64,000 nucleotides of DNA, taken from contig CP092864.1 of the NCBI GenBank assembly GCA_030710605.1, positions 136,649,255 to 136,713,254 of the forward strand. The letters are read 5' to 3'. This DNA comes from Cordylochernes scorpioides (lineage: Eukaryota > Arthropoda > Arachnida > Pseudoscorpiones > Chernetidae). The position numbers were made by a program, and so were the translations under genes. Under the pieces are notes generated by a model. That model had not been told where the DNA came from. It saw only the letters and a program-made list of their open reading frames with translations, and ran no database searches. Positions 18,051-56,266 of this stretch are shown in pieces. Position 1 is the stretch's first letter; each line of letters begins with the position of its first letter.

Positions 18051-19931
18051 TCTATCTATAAAGGACAGCTTACATTGCCAATACAGTAGAACCTCCATGA
18101 GAGGACATCTATTTATAAAGGACAGTTTACATTGCCAATACAGTAGAACCTCCATGAGAGGATATTTCTCTATAAAGGACAGTTTACATTGCCAATACAG
18201 TAGAACCTCCATGAGAGGATATTTCTCTATAAAGGACAGTTTACATTGCCAATACAGTAGAACCTCCATGAGAGGACATCTATCTATAAAGGACAGCTTA
18301 CATTGCCAATACAGTAGAACCTCCATGAGAGGACATCTATCTATAAAGGACAGTTTACATTGCCAATACAGTAGAACCTAGATGAGAGGACACCTCTCTA
18401 CAAAGGACAGTTTTTATTGCCAATACAGTAGAACCTACATGAGAGGACATCTATCTATAAAGGACAGTTTGCATTGCCAATACAGTAGAACCTCGATGAG
18501 AGGACATCTATCTATAAAGGACAGCTTACATTGTCAATACAGTAGAACCTACATGAGAGGACATTTATCTATAAAGGACAGCTTACATTGCCCATACAGT
18601 AGAGCCTACATGAGAGGACATCTACCTATAAAGGACAGTTTACATTGCCAATACAGTAGAAACTCCATGAGAGGACATCTATCTTTAAAGGACAGCTTAC
18701 ATTGCCAATACAGTAGAACCTACATGAGAGGACATCTATCTATAAAGGACAGTTTACATTGCCAATACAGTAGAACCTCCATGAGAGGACATTTCTATAC
18801 AAAGGACAGTTTTCATTGCCAATACAGTAGAACCTCCATGAGAGGATATTTCTCTTAAAAAGACAGTTTTCATTGCCAATACAGAAGAACCTCCATGAGA
18901 GGACATCTATCTATAAAGGACAGTTCACCTTGCCAATACATCAGAACCTACATGAGAGGACATCTATCTATAAAGGACAGCTTACATTGCCAATACAGTA
19001 GAACCTACATGAGAGGACATCTATCTATAAAGGACAGTTTACATTGCCAATACAGTAGAACCTCCATGAGAGTACATCTATCTATAAAGGACAGTTTACA
19101 TTGCCAATACAGTAGAACCTCCATGAGAGGACATCTATCTATAAAGGACAGCTTACATTGCCAATACAGTAGAACCTCCATGAGAGGATATTTCTCTATA
19201 AAGGACAGTTCACATTGCCAATACAGTAGAACCTCCATGAGAGGATATTTCTCTATAAAAGACAGTTTTCATTGCCAATACAGTAGAACCTCCATGAGAG
19301 GATATTTCTCTATAAAGGACAGTTCACATTGCCAATACAGTAGAACCTCTATGAGAGGATATTTCTCTATAAAAGACCGTTTTCATTGCCAATACAGTAG
19401 AACCTACATGAGAGGACACCTCTCTACAAAGGACAGTTTTCATTGCCAAAACAGTAGAACCTCCATGAGAGGACACCTCTCTACAAAGGACAGTTTTCAT
19501 TGCCAATACAGTAGAACCTCCATGAGAGGATATTTATCTATAAAGGAAAGTTTTCATTGCCAATACAGTAGAACTTCCATGAGAGGATATCCCTCTATAA
19601 AAGAAAGTTTTCATTGCCAATACAGTAGAACCTCCATGAGAGGATATTTCTCTATAAAAGACAGTTTTCTTTGCCAATACAGTAGAACCTCCATGAGAGG
19701 ACATCTATCTATAAAGGACAGTTTACATTGCCAATACAGTAGAACCTCTATGAGAGGATATTTCTCTATTAAAGACAGTTTTCATTACCAATACAGTAGA
19801 ACCTCCATGAGAGGATATTTCTCTATAAAGGACAGTTTTCATTGCCAATACAGTAGAACCTCCATGAGAGGATATTTCTCTATAAAGGACAGTTTTCATT
19901 GCCAATACAGTAGAACCTCGTTGAGAGGATA

Positions 19932-20374
19932 TTCTATATACAGTTACGAGCGTCATTCCTCATCTCCTAATCAATCAGTCAGTTTTCATCTCTGTCACCA
20001 TTTGCTTTTTTTTTTTTTGGAATGGCGCCCTCCTATTAGTTGGCTACAGTCACGCCACCTTTGCCCCCCACCCCCCCCCATCATGCCCCCCCCCCACTCG
20101 CTATTTCGTCTTTGTAACTATTGTGTTGGAGCGGGTCGCTCCCTGAATAAATGCATATATTAGATAATAACAAAATGGAATCCTCTCTTTCTTTTTCCCA
20201 GTAAGAGACGCCTACGGAAGCCAACAGTACATAGACAGATAAAGCACATAGGCTATAGTTATTAACTAACATATGCAATTATTTAAGGCGCCAATTTATA
20301 ATTGTAACAAATAGTATTTGAATCAAAACATTCAATCGGGTAAAACACGGGCGTTGCCCGGGTCATTCGGCTAG
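19932..20374 (+). mobile_element. Hel-A Helitron copy 2
   Basis: Same ends as copy 1. The flanks are ..TTGAGAGGATA and TTTCCCTATAAAGG. It carries T- and C-homopolymer tracts that differ in length from the other copies. Confidence 0.85.
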
Positions 20375-20887
20375 TTTCCCTATAAAGGACAGTTTTCATT
20401 GCCAATACAGTAGAACCTCCATGAGAGGATATTTTTCTATAAAGGACAGTTTTCATTGCCATTACAGTAGAACCTCCATGAGAGGATATTTCTCTATAAA
20501 GGACAGTTTTCATTGCCAATACAGTAGAACCTCCATGAGAGGATATTTCTCTATAAAAGACAGTTTTCTTTGCCAATACAGTAGAACCTCCATGAGAGGA
20601 CATCTATCTATAAAGGACAGTTTACATTGCCAATACAGTAGAACCTCTATGAGAGGATATTTCTCTATAAAAGAAAGTTTTCATTGTCAATACAGTAGAA
20701 CCTCTATGAGAGGATATTTCTCTATAAAAGACAGTTTTCATTGCCAATACAGTAGAACCTCCAAGAGAGGATATTTCTCTATAAAGGATAGTTTTCATTG
20801 CCAATACAGTAGAACCTCCATGAGAGGATATTTCTCTATAAAGGACAGTTTTCATTGCCAATACAGTAGAACCTCGTTGAGAGGATA

Positions 20888-21329
20888 TTCTATATACAGT
20901 TACGAGCGTCATTCCTCATCTCCTAATCAATCAGTCAGTTTTCATCTCTGTCACCGTTTGCTTTTTTTTTTGGAATGGCGCCCTCCTATTAGTTGGCTAC
21001 AGTCACGCCACCTTTGCCCCCCCCCCCCCCCCCCCATCATGCCCCCCCCACTCGCTATTTCGTCTTTGTAACTATTGTGTTGGAGCGGGGTCGCTCCCTG
21101 AATAAATGCATATATTAGATAATAACAAAATGGAATCCTCTCTTTCTTTTTCCCAGTAAGAGACGCCTACGGAAGCCAACAGTACATAGACAGATAAAGC
21201 ACATAGGCTATAGTTATTAACTAACATATGCAATTATTTAAGGCGCCAATTTATAATTGTAACAAATAGTATTTGAATCAAAACATTCAATCGGGTAAAA
21301 CACGGGCGTTGCCCGGGTCATTCGGCTAG
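20888..21329 (+). mobile_element. Hel-A Helitron copy 3
   Basis: Flanked by the same TTGAGAGGATA / TTTCCCTAT junctions as copy 2. It ends ..CGGCTAG at 21329. Confidence 0.85.
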
Positions 21330-21842
21330 TTTCCCTATAAAGGACAGTTTTCATTGCCAATACAGTAGAACCTCCATGAGAGGATATTTTTCTATAAAGG
21401 ACAGTTTTCATTGCCATTACAGTAGAACCTCCATGAGAGGATATTTCTCTATAAAGGACAGTTTTCATTGCCAATACAGTAGAACCTCCATGAGAGGATA
21501 TTTCTCTATAAAAGACAGTTTTCTTTGCCAATACAGTAGAACCTCCATGAGAGGACATCTATCTATAAAGGACAGTTTACATTGCCAATACAGTAGAACC
21601 TCTATGAGAGGATATTTCTCTATAAAAGAAAGTTTTCATTGTCAATACAGTAGAACCTCTATGAGAGGATATTTCTCTATAAAAGGCAGTTTTCATTGCC
21701 AATACAGTAGAACCTCCAAGAGAGGATATTTCTCTATAAAGGACAGTTTTCATTGCCAATACAGTAGAACCTCCATGAGAGGGTATTTCTCTATAAAGGA
21801 CAGTTTTCATTGCCAATACAGTAGAACCTCGTTGAGAGGATA

Positions 21843-22279
21843 TTCTATATACAGTTATGAGCGTCATTCCTCATCTCCTAATCAATCAGTCAGTTTTCAT
21901 CTCTGTCACCGTTTGCTTTTTTTTTTTTGGAATGGCGCCCTCCTATTAGTTGGCTACAGTCACGCCACCTTTGCCCCCCCCCCCCCCATCATGCCCCCCC
22001 ACTCGCTATTTCGTCTTTGTAACTATTGTGTTGGAGCGGGTCGCTCCCTGAATAAATGCATATATTAGATAATAACAAAATGGAATCCTCTCTTTCTTTT
22101 TCCCAGTAAGAGACGCCTACGGAAGCCAACAGTACATAGACAGATAAAGCACATAGGCTATAGTTATTAACTAACATATGCAATTATTTAAGGCGCCAAT
22201 TTATAATTGTAACAAATAGTATTTGAATCAAAACATTCAATCGGGTAAAACACGGGCGTTGCCCGGGTCATTCGGCTAG
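21843..22279 (+). mobile_element. Hel-A Helitron copy 4
   Basis: Same junctions as copies 2 and 3. It carries a private AGTTATGAGCG change near its 5' end and shortened poly-C tracts. Confidence 0.85.
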
Positions 22280-22476
22280 TTTCCCTATAAAGGACATTTA
22301 AAATACAATATAACGCGGCTGATGATTGTAAAACGAAAATTAAAATTATACCGCGAATGTTTCTTTTAAAAATCGAAATTTATTTTCAAAGAGAAATAGC
22401 GACATTTCTAACTTTGAGGATGAGGTATGGAAAGGTGAAACATGAAGAGTAATGGAGAACGGAAAAATAAAAAGTG

Positions 22477-22548
22477 TCCAGGGGCGGGAATCGAACCCAC
22501 ACCCTTCTGCTAACCGGGCAGGTGCCTTGTCCACTCGGCTACCCTGGA
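22477..22548 (-). repeat. tRNA-like SINE head (inverted unit)
   Basis: The 72-nt sequence folds as a tRNA: acceptor TCCAGGG/CCCTGGA, D stem GCC/GGC, T arm GTGGG-TTCGATT-CCCGC with a perfect B box. It is identical to the three direct copies by eye. Confidence 0.65.
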
Positions 22549-22673
22549 CGTATTTTTCCGTTCATAACTTATATTTAAAGTAACATTTAAAATACAATAT
22601 AACGCAATCATCAGCCGCGTTATATTGTATTTTAAATGTTACTTTAAATATAAGTTATGAACGGAAAAATACG

Positions 22674-22745
22674 TCCAGGGTAGCCGAGTGGACAAGGCAC
22701 CTGCCCGGTTAGCAGAAGGGTGTGGGTTCGATTCCCGCCCCTGGA
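22674..22745 (+). repeat. tRNA-like SINE head, direct unit 1
   Basis: A complete cloverleaf can be drawn: 7-bp acceptor stem, D arm with GCCGAGTGGACAAGGC, anticodon stem CTGC/GCAG, 7-nt loop CCGGTTA (formal anticodon GGT), 5-nt variable loop, T arm. The base before the anticodon is C where tRNAs have U, and the unit repeats with the SINE body. A SINE promoter head is therefore more likely than a working tRNA gene. Confidence 0.65.
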
Positions 22746-22962
22746 CACTTTTTATTTTTCCGTTCTCCATTACTCTTCATGTTTCACCTTTCCATACCTC
22801 ATCCTCAAAGTTAGAAATGTCGCTATTTCTCTTTGAAAATAAATTTCGATTTTTAAAAGAAACATTCGCGGTATAATTTTAATTTTCGTTTTACAATCAT
22901 CAGCCGCGTTATATTGTATTTTAAATGTTACTTTAAATATAAGTTATGAACGGAAAAATACG

Positions 22963-23034
22963 TCCAGGGTAGCCGAGTGGACAAGGCACCTGCCCGGTTA
23001 GCAGAAGGGTGTGGGTTCGATTCCCGCCCCTGGA
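22963..23034 (+). repeat. tRNA-like SINE head, direct unit 2
   Basis: Exact-looking copy of the 22674-22745 head, 289 bp downstream. Confidence 0.65.
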
Positions 23035-23251
23035 CACTTTTTATTTTTCCGTTCTCCATTACTCTTCATGTTTCACCTTTCCATACCTCATCCTCAAAGT
23101 TAGAAATGTCGCTATTTCTCTTTGAAAATAAATTTCGATTTTTAAAAGAAACATTCGCGGTATAATTTTAATTTTCGTTTTACAATCATCAGCCGCGTTA
23201 TATTGTATTTTAAATGTTACTTTAAATATAAGTTATGAACGGAAAAATACG

Positions 23252-23323
23252 TCCAGGGTAGCCGAGTGGACAAGGCACCTGCCCGGTTAGCAGAAGGGTG
23301 TGGGTTCGATTCCCGCCCCTGGA
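23252..23323 (+). repeat. tRNA-like SINE head, direct unit 3
   Basis: Third head at the same 289-bp spacing. It is followed by the body ending ..TTTTCGTT at 23468, where the 57-bp array resumes. Confidence 0.65.
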
Positions 23324-23976
23324 CACTTTTTATTTTTCCGTTCTCCATTACTCTTCATGTTTCACCTTTCCATACCTCATCCTCAAAGTTAGAAATGTCG
23401 CTATTTCTCTTTGAAAATAAATTTCGATTTTTAAAAGAAACATTCGCGGTATAATTTTAATTTTCGTTCTATAAAGGACAGTTTTCATTGCCAATACAGT
23501 AGAACCTCCATGAGAGGATATTTCTCTATAAAGGACAGTTTTCATTGCCATTACAGTAGAACCTCCATGAGAGGATATTTCTCTATAAAGGACAGTTTTC
23601 ATTGCCAATACAGTAGAACCTCCATGAGAGGATATTTCTCTATAAAAGACAGTTTTCTTTGCCAATACAGTAGAACCTCCATGAGAGGACATCTATCTAT
23701 AAAGGACAGTTTACATTGCCAATACAGTAGAACCTCTATGAGAGGATATTTCTCTATAAAAGAAAGTTTTCATTGTCAATACAGTAGAACCTCTATGAGA
23801 GGATATTTCTCTATAAAAGACAGTTTTCATTGCCAATACAGTAGAACCTCCAAGAGAGGATATTTCTCTATAAAGGACAGTTTTCATTGCCAATACAGTA
23901 GAACCTCCATGAGAGGATATTTCTCTATAAAGGACAGTTTTCATTGCCAATACAGTAGAACCTCGTTGAGAGGATA

Positions 23977-24393
23977 TTCTATATACATTTACGAGCGTCA
24001 TTCCTCATCTCCTAATCAATCAGTCAGTTTTCATCTCTGTCACCGTTTGCTTTTTTTTTTTGGAATGGCGCCCTCCTATTAGTTGGCTACAGTCACGCCA
24101 CCTTTGCCCCCCCACTCGCTATTTCGTCTTTGTAACTATTGTGTTGGAGCGGGTCGTTCCCTGAATAAATGCATATATTAGATAATAACAAAATGAAATC
24201 CTCTCTTTTTTTTTTCCCAGTAAGAGACGCCTACGGAAGCCAACAGTACATAGACAGATAAAGCACATAGGCTATAGTTATTAACTAACATATGCAATTA
24301 TTTAAGGCGCCAATTTATAATTGTAACAAAGAGTATTTGAATCAAAACATTCAATCGGGTAAAACACGGGCGTTGCCCGGGTCATTCGGCTAG
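23977..24393 (+). mobile_element. Hel-A Helitron copy 5
   Basis: Same junctions as copies 2-4. It is shorter because the C-rich tract is reduced to one short run (GCCCCCCCACTCG). It has GGGTCGTTCCC instead of GGGTCGCTCCC. Confidence 0.85.
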
Positions 24394-25987
24394 TTTCCCT
24401 ATAAAGGACAGTTTTCATTGCCAATACAGTAGAACCTCCATGAGAGGATATTTCTCTATAAAGGACAGTTTTCATTGCCATTACAGTAGAACCTCCATGA
24501 GAGGATATTTCTCTATAAAGGACAGTTTTCATTGCCAATACAGTAGAACCTCCATGAGAGGATATTTCTCTATAAATGACAGTTTTCATTGCCAATACAG
24601 TAGAACCTCCATGAGAGGATATTTCTCTATAAAAGACAGTTTTCTTTGCCAATACAGTAGAACCTCCATGAGAGGACATCTATCTATAAAGGACAGTTTA
24701 CATTGCCAATACAGTAGAACCTCTATGAGAGGATATTTCTCTATAAAAGAAAGTTTTCATTGTCAATACAGTAGAACCTCTATGAGAGGATATTTCTCTA
24801 TAAAAGACAGTTTTCATTGCCAATACAGTAGAACCTCTATGAGAGGATATTTCTCTATAAAGACAGTTTTCATTGCCAATACAGTAGAACCTACATGAGA
24901 GGACACCTCTCTACAAAGGACAGTTTTCATTGCCAATACAGTAGAACCTACATGAGAGGACACCTCTCTAGAAAGGACAGTTTTCATTGCCAATATAGTA
25001 GAACCTCTATGAGAGGATATTTATCTATAAAGGACAGTTTTCATTGCCAATACAGTAGAACCTCCATGAGAGGATATTTCTCTATAAAGGACAGTTTTCA
25101 TTGCCATTACAGTAGAACCTCCATGAGAGGATATTTCTCTATAAAGGACAGTTTTCATTGCTAATACAGTAGAACCTCCATGAGAGGATATTTCTCTATA
25201 AAAGACAGTTTTCTTTGCCAATACAGTAGAACCTCCATGAGAGGACATCTATCTATAAAGGACAGTTTACATTGCCAATACAGTAGAACCTCCATGAGAG
25301 GATATTTCTCTATAAAAGAAATTTTCATTGTCAATACAGTAGAACCTCTATGAGAGGATATTTCTCTATAAAAGACAGTTTTCATTGCCAATACAGTAGA
25401 ACCTCTATGAGAGGATATTTCTCTATAAAAGACAGTTTTCATTGCCAATACAGTAGAACCTACATGAGAGGACACCTCTCTACAAAGGACAGTTTTCATT
25501 GCCAAAACAGTAGAAACTCCATGAGAGGACACCTCTCTACAAAGGACAGTTTTCATTGCCAATACAGTAGAACCTCTATGAGAGGATATTTATCTATAAA
25601 GGACAGTTTTCATTGCCAATACAGTAGAACTTCCATGAGAGGATATTCCTCTATAAAAGAAAGTTTTCATTGCCAATACAGTAGAACCTCCATGAGAGGA
25701 CATCTATCTATAAAGGACAGTTTACATTGCCAATACAGTAGAACCTCTATGAGAGGATATTTCTCTTAAAAAGACAGTTTTCATTGCCAATACAGTAGAA
25801 CCTCCATGAGAGGATATTTCTCTATAAAGGACAGTTTTCATTGCCAATACAGTAGAACCTCCATGAGAGGATATTTCTCTATAAAGGACAGTTTTCATTG
25901 CCAATACAGTAGAACCTCCATGAGAGGATATTTCTCTATAAAGGAAAGTTTTCATTGCCAATACAGTAGAACCTCGTTGAGAGGATA

Positions 25988-32276: not shown

Positions 32277-32323
32277 AATAACACAAGGTAATAAGACCAA
32301 ATCCAAATAAATAAATAGTGTGT

Positions 32324-32357
32324 GACGTTTCAGTAACAGCGTTGTTACCATCATCAG
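32324..32357 (-). ncRNA. Hammerhead-ribozyme-like core in an FB arm
   Basis: The minus strand reads CTGATGA, then a hairpin (TGGTAAC-AACGCT-GTTACT, one G-T pair), then GAAAC and GTC. These match the conserved hammerhead boxes CUGANGA and GAAA with a UC cleavage site. Stem III is only the self-complementary ACGT, as in minimal type I hammerheads that work as dimers. Stem I next to the core is a short TGT/ACA. Confidence 0.5.
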
Positions 32358-32472
32358 ACAAAAGTGTACTAAATGAGAAAAATATATCACAGCATGCTTT
32401 AGATATTTCTGTTATCAAGTGTGTAAACAAGATAGCAGATAAGAAGACAGTGTTTTCTAAGAACCTAAAATA

Positions 32473-34560: not shown

Positions 34561-35158
34561 GTGATTTTTACTAGCCTTCCAAAGTGAATAATGTGTTTAA
34601 TAAAATCAATAGAGTACCAGGGCTATATAATCCCCATTGAATATAAGCCAAAAATATTTTTAAAACTTAATTCTATTCATGTGTGGTGCTGAGTTTGTTG
34701 TTGATACACATTAATATGTTATAATACCTTGATAAAGGTTGGCGTTCAGCCAACTGAAATATTGGTAAAATAAATATGTTTCTTGTAAAATTTTCTAGCT
34801 TTCGGGCTAACATGTTCTTCAACAGGAGCAACTAGGAATATAACTTCTAGCTAACTATATATGCCTAAAATTAACATAATGGTAGGATGGTAAAATTGCT
34901 TTTCCTTATCCTCACCACTTTACCAAGATATGGTTTACCTGGGTTAAACCTGGTTGGGAAAATAGTCTTAAGTGTTTATACTCTTACGATTATGAAAGTC
35001 TTTCCAAAGTAAGAAAACAATTAAGTGGCTGGAAATTGATATGAAAACTGAAATTTCAACATTTCACAGTTGAAATCTGTTTGATGCTTGTAGTGATTTT
35101 CTATATGCTGATTTATTATTATTATTTTTTTTAAGAAGATGAATTCTGTAAATATGTA
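34561..35158. other. Non-coding sequence with a degenerate hammerhead-like repeat
   Basis: 34735-34850 matches, in inverted orientation, the segment at 1375-1512 (GGCGTTCAGCCAACTGAAATATTG; the other strand reads CCTGTTGAAGAACATGTTAGCCCGAAAGC). No gene seen. Confidence 0.4.
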
Positions 35159-35319
35159 CAGTTAAACCTGTCTATAGCGCCTTCCTCTCTATAGCGCCTG
35201 ATTTTATATAGGTAGTACGAGGCGATTTACATTAAAAGTGACCTGTCTATAGCACCCCCTCTCTATAGCACCCTATTTTGATGAGTCCCAAGAGGGGGTG
35301 CTATAGACAGGTTTAACTG
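35159..35319. mobile_element. MITE-B copy 1 (161 bp)
   Basis: TIRs CAGTTAAACCTGTCTATAGC and GCTATAGACAGGTTTAACTG with TA flanks; repeated CTATAGCGCC motifs inside. Pogo/Tigger-type non-autonomous element. Confidence 0.8.
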
Positions 35320-35397
35320 TATATTTTCCATTAAAGAAAATAATGGTTATGTAAATACAAGGTAATAAGACCAAATCCAAATAAATAAATAGTGTGT

Positions 35398-35431
35398 GAC
35401 GTTTCGGTAGCAGCATTGTTACCATCTTCAG
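35398..35431 (-). ncRNA. Hammerhead-ribozyme-like core, left FB arm
   Basis: CTGAAGA, hairpin GGTAAC-AATGCT-GCTACC (one mismatch), GAAAC, GTC. All core boxes are present on the minus strand. Confidence 0.5.
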
Positions 35432-35631
35432 ACAAAAGTACTGAATGAGAAAATTTACCACAGCATGTTTTTAAATAGTTACTGTTATCAAGTGTGTAAA
35501 CAAGATAACAGATAAGAAGAAGATATTTATCTGAGAAACACAGAATATTATTCTTAGAATTAAAAGTGGAAAAAACCCTTTTTTTTTTTTAACAACATGC
35601 TGTGGTAAAATTTCTCATTCAGTACTTTTGT

Positions 35632-35665
35632 CTGAAGATGGTAACAATGCTGTTACCGAAACGTC
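35632..35665 (+). ncRNA. Hammerhead-ribozyme-like core, right FB arm
   Basis: CTGAAGA, a perfect 6-bp stem II GGTAAC-AATGCT-GTTACC, then GAAAC and GTC, followed by ACACAC. Flanking TGT and ACA can form the start of stem I, with AGT/ACT beyond an internal loop. Confidence 0.55.
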
Positions 35666-35741
35666 ACACACTATATATTTATTTGGATTTGGTCGTATTA
35701 CCTTGTGTTTATAATTTATAATCCAAATTGTGCCTTATCAA

Positions 35742-36205
35742 GGTTATGTAAATATAAAAAAGGATATATATAAGGTGTGTGAGCTGAAGTTAGGTTGAAT
35801 ATGTCAAAAATTAAAGTTTATATTTTATGGCGTCTGAGATTTGAGGCAACATATAAGTAAAACAGTGATAACACTAAAGTACCATGTGTTTTTACCTATA
35901 GTATTACATCATGTTTAATGCATATCTCCATGTATTATTCAAAATAACTTCATTTTTAACACAGAATAACACATCATATTTAAGCATATTTTTTATGTAC
36001 ATTCATTATATATTTACTTTTTATATCTCTTTGTAAATAGAATTGGTAGAAAAGGAAATAAAATTGAACATGTATTGAGGCAATTGCTCTAGTATTCATT
36101 TATTTAATTCTTATACAATGGTTGAGAAATTCACTCTGGAAAGACAGTCAATATGAGGAAATAGAAAATCAAGGTTAATAAACTTTCCAAACTACAACTT
36201 GTTGT
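35742..36205. other. Unassigned AT-rich sequence
   Basis: No coding motif or repeat family recognised. Confidence 0.3.
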
Positions 36206-44190: not shown

Positions 44191-44253
44191 CATGTTTCTA
44201 ATCTATATTTCATATTGTACATAATCAAGGTTCCATTATAATTCATTATTTAG

Positions 44254-44356
44254 GATAAACACAAGGTAATACGACCAAATCCAAATAAATAAATAGTGTT
44301 TGGATTTGAACTTATTACTTTGTGTTTATAATCTATAATCCAAATTGTACCTTATC
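44254..44356. mobile_element. FB palindromic element, internally deleted
   Basis: Only outer arms and tail (CCAAATTGTACCTTATC) remain. The flanks CATTATTTAGGAT and CATTATTTAGGGAT look like an imperfect target duplication. Confidence 0.6.
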
Positions 44357-44488
44357 ATTATTTAGGGATGATAAGATGGGCTTATAAATTAGAAACTTAA
44401 AAAAGAGGACAAGGGATCCCTGTACAGAGAACCAAGAAGAAAAAAACACAAGGTAATAAGACCAAATCCAAATAAATAAATAGTGTGT

Positions 44489-44522
44489 GACGTTTCGGTA
44501 ACAGCGTTGTTACCATCTTCAG
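44489..44522 (-). ncRNA. Hammerhead-ribozyme-like core, left FB arm
   Basis: CTGAAGA, a perfect stem II GGTAAC-AACGCT-GTTACC, then GAAAC and GTC on the minus strand. Confidence 0.55.
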
Positions 44523-44540
44523 ACAAAAGTACTGAACTGT

Positions 44541-44574
44541 CTGAAGATGGTAACAACGCTGTTACCGAAACGTC
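44541..44574 (+). ncRNA. Hammerhead-ribozyme-like core, right FB arm
   Basis: The same 34-nt core on the plus strand, separated from its inverted partner by only 18 nt. Confidence 0.55.
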
Positions 44575-44920
44575 ACACACTATTTATTTATTTGGATTTG
44601 GTCTTATTACCTTGTGTTTATAATCTATAATCCAAATTGTGCCTTATCAAGAACCAAGAAGAGTTCTTGAATTTCTTTATGAGCACGACCTCCAAGATCT
44701 TGTCTAATTTAGACTAAAGGATAAGTAAAAAAACAATGGTTGCCTGTAAAGTCGGTTTTACGGGCGAAGATTTTACGTGACAACGGTAGAATATTTATTG
44801 ATATGAATATAATTAAATTGCACAATAGGAACAAGGAATTGAATGAAAATAAGAATTGCACAAATTTTAACTATAGAAATATATTTTGTTTACTAAAACA
44901 TTGTACATGTAAACTTAAAC

Positions 44921-47803: not shown

Positions 47804-48127
47804 CACTCATGGACAAAACTTAAGGAAGTGGAATGTCATTGATGTCGCCGGTCATCTATTACTTTTAAGGAGACAGAGGCAATTTTGTTCACACTTGGTT
47901 ATCTCCTGTCTTCAATAAAAATCACTGTGGAACGCTTCACGCTTTTGCGTGTCATCCTTGCGCAGGGGCCATGCTAATTGTCTCTGTGTCATTCCAATTT
48001 TAGTATATGTACCGCCGAACAAGTGTGTACAATAAAAATCACTGTGTATCAAATATCTTTCAGTTATTGTTTGAATCCTGTAATACACGCTAAAAGGTAC
48101 AACTTCCTTAAGTTTTGTCCACGAGTG
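47804..48127. mobile_element. MITE-E copy carrying a U6 snRNA insertion
   Basis: TA-flanked ends CACTCATGGACAAAACTTAA and TTAAGTTTTGTCCACGAGTG. Removing 47930-48029 and one target duplication leaves a normal ~207-bp MITE-E. Confidence 0.75.
47930..48029 (-). pseudogene. U6 snRNA retrocopy with 17-bp target duplication
   Basis: The minus strand reads CTTGTTCGGCGGTACATATA, CTAAAATTGGAATGACACAG, AGACAATTAGCATGGCCCCT, GCGCAAGGATGACACGCAAA and AGCGTGAAGCGTTCC. It spans almost all of U6, including the ACAGAGA box, the AGC triad and the internal stem-loop. CAATAAAAATCACTGTG flanks it at 47913-47929 and 48030-48046, so it inserted by target-primed reverse transcription. It differs from canonical U6 at several sites (for example GAAGAT to GACAAT after ACAGA) and lacks the 3' oligo-U and an upstream promoter in the MITE. 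It is most likely a pseudogene. Confidence 0.85.
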
Positions 48128-50458: not shown

Positions 50459-50673
50459 TAGTTTATATTTATTCAGACAGATGGTGCAAGCCATCAGCAA
50501 CTTTTAGTTGCACAATCAGGAGATGTCTTTTTCTTAATTATGATTTATCCTAGGGACAAAAAAAAGGATCTTGGTCACTTTTGACCCTACAATATCATCA
50601 AAAGATTATCCACAGAAAAGAAGCTCTAAAAGAACAGGAATAATACCTACAACCAAACTATATGGTTTGAGGA

Positions 50674-51237
50674 TGATGAGGCACAATTTGGATTATAGAT
50701 TATAGCTACAAGAAAAAAAAAACCTAATCCAAATAAATCAATAGTGTGTGAGGTTTTGGTAACAGCATTGTTATCATCTTCAGACAAAAGAATAAAATAT
50801 ACAGTAAAACCTGTCTATAGCGCCCCCTCTTGAGACTCACCAAAATAGGGTGCTATAGACAGGTCACTTTTAATGTAAATCGCATTGTACTACGTATTTA
50901 AAATCGGGCGCTATTGAGAGGGAGACGCTATAGATAGGTTTAACTGTAATATGATAAAATGAAATATGAATTTAATGAATAATGAAATTAAACTGGCGAA
51001 ACTGCTGGGAGGGTTCACCACTGATGAACCAGGCCCTCCCATTAATTTTTATATTGCAGTAAGGGCAGTAGAAATTGTTTCATTTTAAAAAGAATCATAC
51101 GCGTCTATAATAGCTTTGAATTTTCATAATGAATATGATAAAATGATTTTATTCTTTTGTTTGAAGATGGTAACAATGCTGTTACCGAAACGACACACAC
51201 TATTAATTTATTTGGATTAGGTCTTATTTTCTTGTAG
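50674..51237. mobile_element. FB palindromic element containing MITE-B and a P2 arm, with 13-bp target duplication
   Basis: CTATATGGTTTGA flanks both sides (about 50659-50671 and 51238-51250). The tail is at the left (GATGAGGCACAATTTGG), so this copy is minus-oriented. A MITE-B (50802-50946) and a P2 segment (50990-51130) inserted in its spacer. The right-arm core is mutated (TTGAAGA; GAAACGAC). Confidence 0.7.
50802..50946. mobile_element. MITE-B copy 3 (145 bp)
   Basis: CAGTAAAACCTGTCTATAGC to CTATAGATAGGTTTAACTG with TA flanks, inserted in an FB element. Confidence 0.75.
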
Positions 51238-51250
51238 CTATATGGTTTGA

Positions 51251-51643: not shown

Positions 51644-53191
51644 TTACATGTTCTGGCTCTGCTGTTGGCGAATTTTCCAGACTTCTTTCCCGATTCTGTT
51701 GAGTAGGGTGAAGTTGGTATCATCTATCTCATGCATGGTCAGGAACTTCTGTAGAATGGCGAGAGACTTGAAGGCATCTCCGACTGTCGGTAGTATTTCA
51801 TCTTCCTCTTCCTCGCTGCTTTCATCCTCTTTGCCGAAGTTATTCTTCACCTCGTTGATGATTTGATCCAGATCTCTAAGTTCACTTGTGACTAGATTCT
51901 CATCAACATTGACAAACTCATCGAAAGTCAGTTCTTCATTTGAAATTAAATCCCATTCAGCTTGTGTAATATCTGCTTCATCGATGATTTCAGTTTCATC
52001 TGGTGGGTCATCATCAAATTCATCATTAGAGATGATTCCTGCTTTCTTAAATGCATTTGCGATTGTAATGCAAGAAACACTTTCCCAAGCTGAACGTAGA
52101 AAATGCATAGCATTCAGAATTGTGATCTTTTTTGGAACTTCTCTGTTATCCACATGCATGAGAAGTTTCTTGACTAAAAGCATACGATATCTGGCTTTAA
52201 TGGTACGGATAACACCCTGTTGTAAGGGCTGTACAATATGGTAATTGCCAGAACCAGGGAAGAACACCAATCTCACATTCTTTAATGGTGGAACATCGCT
52301 TGTATGAACCGGACATTCGTCAATAAACAACATAATGGTTCTTCCTTGTCGTATCATCTCTGCATCCAACTTGTAGAGAAACTGTTGAAAGAGTCCGCTA
52401 GTCATCCAAGCATTTCTACTACATTCATAATCACACGGTAGACATTTCACATTCTTAAAGCAATGAGGGATTTCACTTTTTCCAACCACCATAATGGATA
52501 ACTTCTCGCTACCATCTGCATTACAAGCTAACAGCATAGTTAATCTTTCTTTGTTGAGTTTACCATCTTGGCAGGTTTCTCCGAAGTAGGGTCTTGCACG
52601 ACCTGGAAGCAAACTGTAAAAAAGTCCACATTCATCTGCATTGAAGATATCTTTCAACTCGTAGCCTTGACAGAGATTTCGAATGTGCATAGCAAGTGGT
52701 TGTACATCTTTAGAATGAATAAAAATATTTTCTCCACCAATTGAACTAAAAGCCAGACCATTCCTTTTCTTAAACTTGTCTAACCAACCACAAGATGCTG
52801 TAAAAGTCTTTATATCCAACCTATGAGCAATCTCACAAGCTTTTTCTCTCATAATTTGAGAACTTATTGGTGACTTTAATGATCTCATCTCGTTAAACCA
52901 TTTAATTAATATATTTTCCAATTCAGCATATCTTTCTGTTTGAAGTTTGGTACGTTTACATAATTGAATAGCATATTTTGATGCTAGATCTTTTATTTCA
53001 TTTCTTTTTGCCAATATACCTTTTAATGTTGATTCTGGTAAATGGCAATGTTTTGCTAATTCTGCTTTTGTCATATGTGGGTTCCTTTCTGCTTCCAGTA
53101 TGATTTTATATTTTTCTTCTATTGAATGACATTTTCTCTTTGGTGGTTTAATTGGCGTCTGCTGATTAGAATTTGTTACATCTTCTGTCAT
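51644..53191 (-). CDS. Pogo/Tigger-type transposase-derived protein, catalytic triad incomplete
   Basis: This intact 515-codon single-exon frame has the architecture of the pogo/Tigger (TIGD, CENP-B-related) family. An N-terminal psq-like HTH is at residues ~18-65 (SIEEKYKIILEAE, then LPESTLKGILAKR). A CENP-B/Tc5 HTH is at ~75-140 (CGWLDKFKKRNGL). A DDE_1 domain is at ~180-345 (IFNADECGLFYSLLPGRA; KNVKCLPC; AWMTSGLFQQFL). The first Asp (186) is present and the second position is FIDE (291, usually DN). The third catalytic position, normally D in QPLDQG, is Q324 (QPLQQG). The usual PPNTTS loop is FPGSGNYH. A strongly acidic region (~385-465) precedes a hydrophobic C-terminus. The ATG at 53191 is the first in frame. 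No flanking TIRs were seen. It probably binds DNA but cannot transpose, and may be a domesticated host gene. Confidence 0.85.
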   Translation of the reverse strand: MTEDVTNSNQQTPIKPPKRKCHSIEEKYKIILEAERNPHMTKAELAKHCHLPESTLKGILAKRNEIKDLASKYAIQLCKRTKLQTERYAELENILIKWFNEMRSLKSPISSQIMREKACEIAHRLDIKTFTASCGWLDKFKKRNGLAFSSIGGENIFIHSKDVQPLAMHIRNLCQGYELKDIFNADECGLFYSLLPGRARPYFGETCQDGKLNKERLTMLLACNADGSEKLSIMVVGKSEIPHCFKNVKCLPCDYECSRNAWMTSGLFQQFLYKLDAEMIRQGRTIMLFIDECPVHTSDVPPLKNVRLVFFPGSGNYHIVQPLQQGVIRTIKARYRMLLVKKLLMHVDNREVPKKITILNAMHFLRSAWESVSCITIANAFKKAGIISNDEFDDDPPDETEIIDEADITQAEWDLISNEELTFDEFVNVDENLVTSELRDLDQIINEVKNNFGKEDESSEEEEDEILPTVGDAFKSLAILQKFLTMHEIDDTNFTLLNRIGKEVWKIRQQQSQNM

Positions 53192-54194
53192 TTTTGAATG
53201 TGAAAATATACTTTAAATGAATCTTAATAATTTATATTTAATTTTTTATATGTTAGTTTGAAATTAATTTTACTTTTTAAATAAAAATAAATGTATTTGA
53301 CTATATCAAAAATCAAACAAATGATTATTAATAGCAAAATAAATAAACAAAGAAATTATGAAAGATAAAAGCAAAAATGTCACCAACCTAAACATGCAGC
53401 TGTGTTTTGTTAAATGGAAAACCATGTATAAATAGTAAAATATCAAAAATAAAATAGAAGTGTCAAAAATCTGGAATGTTCAAAACGATTGAAAATCGGT
53501 TTAGCTTAAACCAATTGTCAATGTTAAATGTTATGCGATTGTATTTTTAAAATAAACTTTTGTAAAGAAATAAGTATTACTTTTATATCTTAGGAAAAAT
53601 AAATGAAAATATGTTTTAAAAAGTAATAAAACTTGCGTCAAGTTACGGAATGATATAGAATGCACCTAATCGTATAGTAACCAACAAAGTATCTCAATTA
53701 AATACTATTCCTGAACAAAATCTGGAATGTTGTAAAAAGTATTCATTCTCTCAAACCAACATGTCAACCGCGGACATTAAAGATTAAAAGTTGTTATTTA
53801 GGAAAGATGTGAAGACGATAACTCAATGGGTTGCCAGATCTTTCTAAAATGAGTCAAAGAATTATTTTTCTGAAAATATCTGTCCAAATAAATATTTTCA
53901 GCAAAAATAGAAACAAAATTCCTTATCTCATACTTATTATCTACGCTTTAGAAATAAAATATGAATGTTTTAAATTTGACATATTCTTGCAAAAATTTGA
54001 AGAAAAAGACTAATCCTACCCACGGGGATATCTTTAGCATCCACCTCACTTGAAATGTTTTAATTTATAGAAATAATACTTTTTAAGCAAATGCTTTGCT
54101 ATAATATATATATGAATATATTCAAAAAGAAAAATTTACCAGAGTCGAGTATTAACTTTTCTCATAAGGTAATATTTTATTAATTTTCTCTTAC
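53192..54194. other. AT-rich sequence, probable intron/intergenic
   Basis: No transposon ends found. Two copies of an ATCTGGAATGTT motif (53468, 53721). It may hold the upstream region of the Tigger-like gene and the intron following the EGF exon. Confidence 0.35.
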
Positions 54195-54963: not shown

Positions 54964-56266
54964 CAGGGTGTACCAGGTAAATTGGGAATTTCAACAATGG
55001 TATTTTAACTGAAATTTTTTGCAAGTAAAAATTAAAATATCCGAATGAAATTTGACACAGTAGTAGATAAAAGGATATAGTTTTTATTTATTCAATGTAG
55101 TTTCCATTATTAGCTACAACAGTCTCGAGGCGAGTGCGGAATGAAGCACAGGCCTTGGCGACGATGACCTTGTCCATTTGGGTCATCACCGTGTGAACTG
55201 CTTTCTTGACAGACTGGATGGTGGTATGAGGAGCTTTGTTGACATCTCTCTCAACAACGCCCCATACATAGTAGTCGAGGGGATTGCAATCTGGAGAATT
55301 AGGGGGCCAAATATCAGGACCCCAGTGACTAGGGACGTTAAGTGTCAGCCACGATTGTGTCTTTTTTGCCTTATGGGCTGGAGCTGAGTCCTGTTGGAAG
55401 ACATACTTCCTTCCTGCGGCCACCATGTCCATCCAAGGCTTCACAAAGGTCTCCAGAACATTGATGTAGGTGTCAGCGTTCATCCTAAGGCCCTTCTCAA
55501 AGAAATGGGGAGGCATGACATCACCTTCACTGCTGATAACGCAAAGGACCATTACGGAGGCAGGAAATTTCGTGTGCATCACGACAGGTATCTCTGAGGG
55601 GTCTTTACAAATCCAGCGATCATTCCTGAGATTTACCTTTTGGTCCACGTCAAAGTTCTTTTCGTCAGAGAAGAACCTTAGCATGCCAAAAGAAACGTGT
55701 TTCAGGTTGTTGAGGAGGGCAGCAGCCTTTCCTTTTCTGTTATTCTTCATATTCTCAGTCAGCAACTGACCTTTCCGAAGGGCATAAGACTTGAGACCAA
55801 GGTCCTCATGGATAGTTCTGACAATTGTCATAGAGCCAACGTCCATTTCCTTGGCTATGGCCCTCATGCTCTTCCCAGGGTTTCCATCAATCTTCTCCTT
55901 GACATTTTTGACAAATTCTTCGCCTCTTACCCTGTCCGATCGACGCGAGTGCTTTTTCCTTGTAGCTATCCCCTCTTTGTTATTGTCGGCCTCATCAAAC
56001 TGCTTCTTGACACGATAAATAGTGGTTTTGGGCAACTTAAGAAAATCCACTATCTCTTTGGGGCTCCTTCCGGCGCGCAGAGCAACGATGATGGCAGCTC
56101 GATTTTCAAATTCTCGTTACTCTTCATCACTACACTGCGCATACATGTACTGTTGCATTTTACATGAATATGGCTACGTAATGAAAAAAAAAACAAGTTT
56201 TTAATCTCAAGTAGTTTTTGTTTTATGGACTGTCAAAGTTAGTCCCAATTTACCTGGTACACCCTG
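54964..56266 (-). mobile_element. Complete mariner-like element, 1303 bp, identical 24-bp TIRs
   Basis: The left end CAGGGTGTACCAGGTAAATT (plus GGGA) is matched base for base by the inverted right end, with TA at 54962-54963 and 56267-56268. It encloses one transposase gene on the minus strand. Identical TIRs and an almost intact gene indicate a young copy. Confidence 0.92.
55088..56158 (-). CDS. DD37D (maT-like) mariner transposase with one early stop
   Basis: The frame runs from an ATG at 56158 to a stop at 55088, 356 codons, with a single internal TAA at 56117-56119 (codon 14). After it the frame is open for 342 codons. The HTH region includes IVALRAGRSPKEIVDFLKL and TTIYRVKKQF; a second HTH has GKSMRAIAKEMDVGSMTI. 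Catalytic residues are all present: FFSDEKNF, VFQQDSAPAH and SPDCNPLDYYVW. There are 37 residues between the second and third Asp, giving DD37D as in maT-type elements. No in-frame ATG lies between the stop and the first HTH, so this copy is likely non-functional unless stop readthrough or reinitiation occurs, but it is one base from coding. Confidence 0.85.

Follow-up and report, generated by a model that had tools for sequence, protein, structure and literature searches.

Palindromic hammerhead-bearing repeats of Cordylochernes scorpioides as short, inverted-pLTR insertions of a Penelope-like element with two kinds of ends

The palindromic elements in a 64,000-nucleotide stretch of the Cordylochernes scorpioides genome (the window; GCA_030710605.1, contig CP092864.1, positions 136,649,255 to 136,713,254) are, judging from their sequence, insertions with inverted pLTRs and severe truncation at the 5′ end, and they derive from a Penelope-like element (PLE) that is abundant in the same genome. 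The less expected feature of these PLE insertions is the regularity of their ends, one of each of two kinds per insertion. It is highly probable that they are end-truncated insertions of an RT and GIY-YIG Penelope-like retrotransposon, for which a two-ended priming mechanism is proposed. These copies bear on the route by which PLEs insert and on the reason for which they retain a hammerhead, and the more than 15,000 exact hammerhead cores in the genome provide very many short insertions with readable ends and a centre junction.

The first element in the window is flanked by the 13-bp target-site duplication GGTTATGTAAATA, with exact copies at 35345..35357 and 35742..35754. Its inverted, tail-less arm (35352..35567, minus strand) consists of PLE 3′ UTR and pLTR, running from d 233 to 0, where d counts nucleotides upstream from the end of the pLTR, and matches the PLE in locus L114 at 86%; its outer end overlaps the left duplication by shared letters. 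The direct arm (35588..35741, plus strand) consists of pLTR and tail, from d 128 to -30, and matches L114 at 92%. Each arm has a hammerhead core, found by both the pattern and the strict grammar given below. The minus copy at 35398..35431 has one mismatch in stem II, while the plus copy at 35632..35665 has a 7-bp stem II, a 3-bp stem I and a self-complementary ACGT that replaces stem III. The tail, located by alignment to L114, comprises the 28 nt past the pLTR end (35712..35739, plus strand), and the tail-like sequence in L114 is the place where the open frame of the next copy starts.

The second element (44428..44662) has the 13-bp duplication AGAACCAAGAAGA at 44428 and 44650, arms at 44444-44536 (-) and 44538-44650 (+), hammerheads at 44489-44522 (-) and 44541-44574 (+) and a tail at about 44621-44648. 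In the third (50658..51250), bounded by the 13-bp duplication CTATATGGTTTGA at 50658 and 51238, the tailed arm at 50674-50790 (-) and the arm at 51154-51235 (+) are separated by other DNA, and the hammerheads are decayed. A single arm at 32280..32447 (-), for which no adjacent partner arm is listed, has a hammerhead at 32324-32357 (-). In addition to the elements recognised in the first-pass annotation of this DNA, a short collapsed copy (44256-44357) lies within 44243..44366, with the 12-bp duplication TCATTATTTAGG at 44243-44254 and 44355-44366. The exact 13-bp flanks that the annotation had reported at three elements are indeed present (35345/35742, 44428/44650 and 50658/51238). A one-sided tail is likewise found on all three, even though the exact 17-nt string given for it occurs only at 35723 and 44632, with one difference in the third element. 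Because the pLTRs are inverted, each read-through transcript would carry one sense and one antisense hammerhead, as had been pointed out.

All five hammerhead-type sites described by the first-pass annotation lie in palindrome arms at the positions it gave. The pattern CTGANGA..GAAAC matches seven times in the window compared with 0.89 expected in shuffles, five of the seven being the listed sites, and a strict grammar (CTGANGA, spacer, GAAACGTH) returns just those five. A 3-bp stem I is present at all five and a 7-bp stem II, G-U pairs allowed, at four; at the fifth, 35398-35431 (-), stem II has just 4 bp, followed by a mismatch. When a stem II of at least 5 bp and a stem I of at least 2 are demanded, there are four window matches and none in 100 dinucleotide shuffles. 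An alignment of 14 hand-picked sites combines six window-family sites with eight that come from GIY-YIG loci and differ in stem II; its core letters are constant, and stems I and II change jointly. Pairing is found in 97.8% of its cells, compared with 78.4% when shuffled, and the covariation score is 0.648 versus 0.292. When the structure is slid, 31.7-62.3% of cells pair. Two of the five measures do not exceed the shuffles, namely pairs changed on both sides (6 of 10 pairs, a number attained in 245 of the 500 shuffles) and additional pair types (nine, reached by 500 of 500 shuffles), and the 14 sequences represent two or three clades with few independent events. Hammerheads arising by chance are ruled out by the strict-grammar shuffles together with the covariation. 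The conserved core with covarying stems I and II points to a type I hammerhead of the minimal PLE type, which supports the fold that the annotation had claimed.

Single-strand folding of two sequences predicts the stem II hairpin in each, with z-scores of -2.16 and -1.09 (6 of 200 and 30 of 200 shuffles as good), and stem I in the second sequence only, where the core is partly paired as well. Because the z-scores are weak and stem I appears in one of two sequences, an active hammerhead fold is unproven by folding alone. Minimal PLE hammerheads were reportedly described by Cervera and de la Pena in 2014, and those of Lunse et al. in 2017 are said to cleave as dimers. The likeness to these forms, known here from sequence alone, lies in a type I core that has no stable helix III and in the location in pLTRs. 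Background scores with a hammerhead covariance model had been named in advance as a finding against the ribozyme, and this was in part the outcome: no Rfam hammerhead reaches the gathering threshold in the window, and none appears at E<=10 in the 501-bp stretches 35300-35800 and 44300-44800. Since PLE hammerheads are minimal forms without helix III in the available portions of PMC7761336 and PMC6155905, the missing match is not taken as decisive. A match to the Rfam model is no defining feature of the PLE-type hammerhead, and its absence is understandable yet stays a negative result.

The genome that holds the window (2.62 Gb, 24 contigs) contains 7721 + 7852 occurrences of the exact window-type core and none of the reversed pattern. 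Among the first 30 places bearing this core is the stretch L085-L087, in which RT/GIY-YIG coding sequence is flanked by window-type arms. A protein search with its frame, in which 126 of 41154 candidates were scored, gives at least 127 matches. Their open frames reach 897 aa and, among the matches listed, identities cluster near 95-98% and 88-90%. L114 has an 860-aa open frame and two tandem pLTRs, with an exact window-type hammerhead in each. The 860-aa frame has no Pfam domain at E<=0.01; it is 31% identical over 639 aa to the frame of L110, for which Pfam scores RVT_1 and GIY-YIG. The Pfam accession PF26215 is listed for relatives. L115 has two inverted RT/GIY-YIG frames with inverted window-type pLTRs and a tail recognised on one side only. 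Based on the alignment to L114, the left arm of the first window element reaches into the PLE 3′ UTR, and the palindromes would therefore be very short PLE insertions. The name FB elements, used in the first-pass annotation, is wrong or needless here; its preference for PLEs was right.

A GIY-YIG search of the genome, which scored 150 of 17015 candidates, gives at least 146 matches. Thirty loci were cut from it, of which 11 have a hammerhead with a different stem II. Hammerheads in the inverted arms of coding PLEs are found both in L115, of the same family as the window copies, and in L110 and L112, of a second family. L110 and L112 are of the inverted form with a tail on one outer arm, and their duplications, counted by eye and including letters common to the element, are about 10-12 bp. 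L111 breaks the one-tail form, since the tail is crossed by both of the arms that bear its hammerheads. The features of an EN+ PLE can be followed through this material: a parent with a single ORF for RT and GIY-YIG (for L114 through its homology to L110), pLTRs that are tandem in L114 and inverted in L115 and the window, a one-sided tail of about 28-30 nt, counted here as the 30-40 bp tail of such elements, and a short target-site duplication, mostly 12-14 bp where detectable. Three further loci, L108, L109 and L113, are of another PLE kind with a cysteine-rich GIY-YIG ahead of the RT, which we take to resemble the Naiad clade; the pattern used finds no hammerhead in them, and they were set aside from the analysis on that ground.

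The ends of the insertions follow a near-constant rule. The window and 30 pattern-hit loci yield 41 inverted pairs after deduplication. Of these, 33 are one-tailed, seven have no tail and one has a tail on both sides, while independence would give 20.1 one-tailed pairs. A second set of 36 pairs (L009-L047, fetched with a one-tailed query, and L115) has 34 one-tailed pairs and two with none. Pairs fetched twice and loci L001-L008, whose sequence is already covered by later loci or the window, are left out of these counts and of those on duplications, arm-to-arm distance and shared variants; L001-L008 also held two further pairs, both one-tailed (L003 447-666 and L006 2856-3016). A search for duplications that is blind to the tail, demanding an exact shared run of at least 10 within 55 nt of d 0, succeeds in 34 of 77 pairs (32 after deduplication), compared with 102 of 5852 cross-pair controls; the remaining 43 pairs have no such run and are uninformative on ends. 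In all 32 insertions defined in this way, one end is near d 0 and the other 25-34 nt further out. One of them, L104, was rejected as an artefact in which the shared run is tail sequence, leaving 31 of 31. The one-tailed query contributes 18 of these, L115 one, and the window with the pattern-hit loci 12. In this last sample taken alone, 12 of 12 insertions combine an end on the pLTR boundary with an end beyond it. Exact runs of at least 9 are found in 16 of 39 deduplicated pairs of the first set, where mismatched controls give 9 of 1482; for the second set the figures are 15 of 32 and 10 of 992. They are absent from the other 23 and 17 pairs, respectively. Where duplications are found, their lengths peak at 12-14 bp. 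In L029, L035, L047 and L097 an end lies at d -17 and is followed by CAACG-type sequence, which suggests a variant tail, and in L013 the tail end is present three times in a row, 130 bp apart.

The proposed mechanism starts from what is observed, namely sequence common to a coding PLE, target-site duplications, the one-tail rule and variable junctions. The endonuclease would cut both target strands about 12-13 nt apart, and each target 3′ end would prime reverse transcription of PLE RNA. Priming would use one of two RT start sites that lie about 28 nt apart: the pLTR end itself (d 0) or a position past it (d about -28). After stopping early, the two cDNAs would be linked in head-to-head orientation, in some cases by way of self-complementary sequence, that of the hammerhead stem II hairpin included. 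Inverted pLTRs, a single tail and the target duplication would then be products of a single event, and the hammerhead, as part of the parent PLE RNA, would be copied passively into both arms. We infer priming on two strands, the joining step and the sharing of one RNA by both arms.

The arms of an element have more in common than expected. Rare variants common to both arms number 13, compared with 1.86 expected, and 0 of 5000 permutations reach this value. Three old elements account for eight of the 13; once these elements are removed, five variants are left versus 1.14 expected (reached by 26 of 5000 permutations), a smaller excess that persists. The arm-to-arm distance over 52 pairs with CpG masked is 3.3% within and 3.7% between elements, a value at or below which lie 0.3% of permutations (2.3% unmasked); the difference has the same direction as the shared variants, but is small. 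Shared variants could also be produced by transcripts of one source or by gene conversion. They are also in keeping with self-priming, in which one target-primed cDNA folds back and is copied to yield the inverted arm, a route that the accessible part of PMC3846280 proposes for rotifer PLEs with an antisense template. Overlaps of 18-19 nt in 5 of the 41 pairs, with breakpoints at d 71-76 inside the stem II hairpin, suit such a fold-back as well. Self-priming, however, predicts a repeated tail and target flank, whereas one end is observed at d about 0 beside the duplication, and neither arm is consistently the longer (tailed in 17 pairs, tail-less in 16). Self-priming is a doubtful explanation.

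The centre junctions are distinct in 29 of 33 cases, a count that rests on alignment ends and allows a wobble of a few bases, and therefore no single master copy is indicated. This variety makes it quite improbable that the palindromes are a stable non-autonomous family, retrozyme-like or SINE-like, transcribed and mobilised as such and perhaps passing through circular RNA. The very high copy number of the core would suit a family of this kind, and metazoan retrozymes bear type I hammerheads with PLEs as candidate helpers in the available part of PMC7229834, but the retrozymes described there are tandem direct repeats and the window arms are inverted. Long inverted repeats and a short internal region would suit Foldback-type DNA transposons or MITEs that depend on a transposase and resemble hammerheads by chance. 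This reading can be practically dismissed, as the first-pass annotation had already held, given asymmetric ends, variable centre junctions, hammerhead covariation and arms and ends that belong to an RT/GIY-YIG coding retroelement, where symmetric ends and a transposase source would mark a Foldback.

The end pattern and the arm-shared variants fit two-ended TPRT of one RNA with each start site used once. Independent priming fails to explain the use of exactly one of each, and it is simplest to assume a single RNA that has both sites. A stronger form of this mechanism, put forward tentatively, is that insertion is obligately coupled, one RNA being copied twice, each site once, and the two cDNAs, identical to each other, joined at self-complementary sequence. 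The stem II hairpin, with perhaps RNA pairing through the stem III ACGU, might then serve as the landing point for joining, a suggestion that we hold no more firmly. If so, the ribozyme fold would matter for joining or template pairing and not for cleavage. Ribozyme cleavage as the step that sets cDNA 5′ ends finds no support, since 1 of 82 breakpoints lies in the region of the expected cut site (d 47-52), in a sample partly selected by intact cores and for which no depletion at the cut site is claimed. Therefore no role of cleavage is seen in shaping the insertions, and this lack of a junction excess at the cleavage site bears on the role of the ribozyme.

Several of these features are shared with known systems. 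The Pen families of Adineta vaga, in the available part of PMC3846280, have inverted pLTRs, 5′ truncation, junction palindromes and DNA captured between pLTRs, together with an optional 31-bp tail on one inverted pLTR, one-sided as here. Inverted arms need not be seen as a departure from PLEs, as the first-pass annotation had seen them, since inverted pLTRs and a one-sided tail are published there. The Pen duplications are 8-10 bp in the cases given, some copies having none, whereas they are mostly 12-14 bp here; that part of PMC3846280 makes no mention of hammerheads, which are present here, and the copies here are far more numerous and often shorter than 400 bp. The Poseidon PLE of Anolis carolinensis (PMC11167929) has a hammerhead at the pLTR/ORF boundary and a GIY-YIG and RT protein able to cut both strands in vitro and to extend them; the tail of Poseidon is bounded by two RT start sites, as proposed here. 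Its ORF starts at stem II, whereas the open frame of L114 starts inside the tail (1683). Mutation of its hammerhead does not prevent insertion in vitro, and the protein is required for cleavage. The RT start in Anolis shows no strand difference, whereas here each insertion has one site per end; the Anolis result neither supports nor excludes coupling. The one-of-each end pattern provides an in vivo test of this in vitro model. PLE hammerheads, inverted pLTRs, a one-sided tail and duplications are already in print in the portions available of PMC3846280, PMC7761336 and PMC11167929, while near-obligate one-of-each ends are not found stated in the parts covered of PMC7229834, PMC11167929, PMC3846280, PMC7761336, PMC6155905 and PMC12910113. 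For the C. scorpioides genome and its transposable elements, the titles retrieved are of Wolbachia papers only.

The window has other repeats and genes. A palindromic MITE-like repeat with ends like CAGTTAAACCTGTCTATAGCGCC, identified by eye, occurs at 35158-35322, where it adjoins the first element, and at about 50801-50950, between the arms of the third. Minus-strand open frames at 51644-53212 and 55088-56116 have, by eye, the look of Tigger/pogo-type and mariner-type transposases. A match to U6 snRNA (90.4 bits) lies at 47921-48030. At 22476-23324 there are four equally scoring matches to the tRNA family, three on the plus strand at 289-bp spacing and one on the minus strand, which adjoin long minisatellite-like open frames built of SIKDSFHCQYSRTSMRGYF units (18382-25769).
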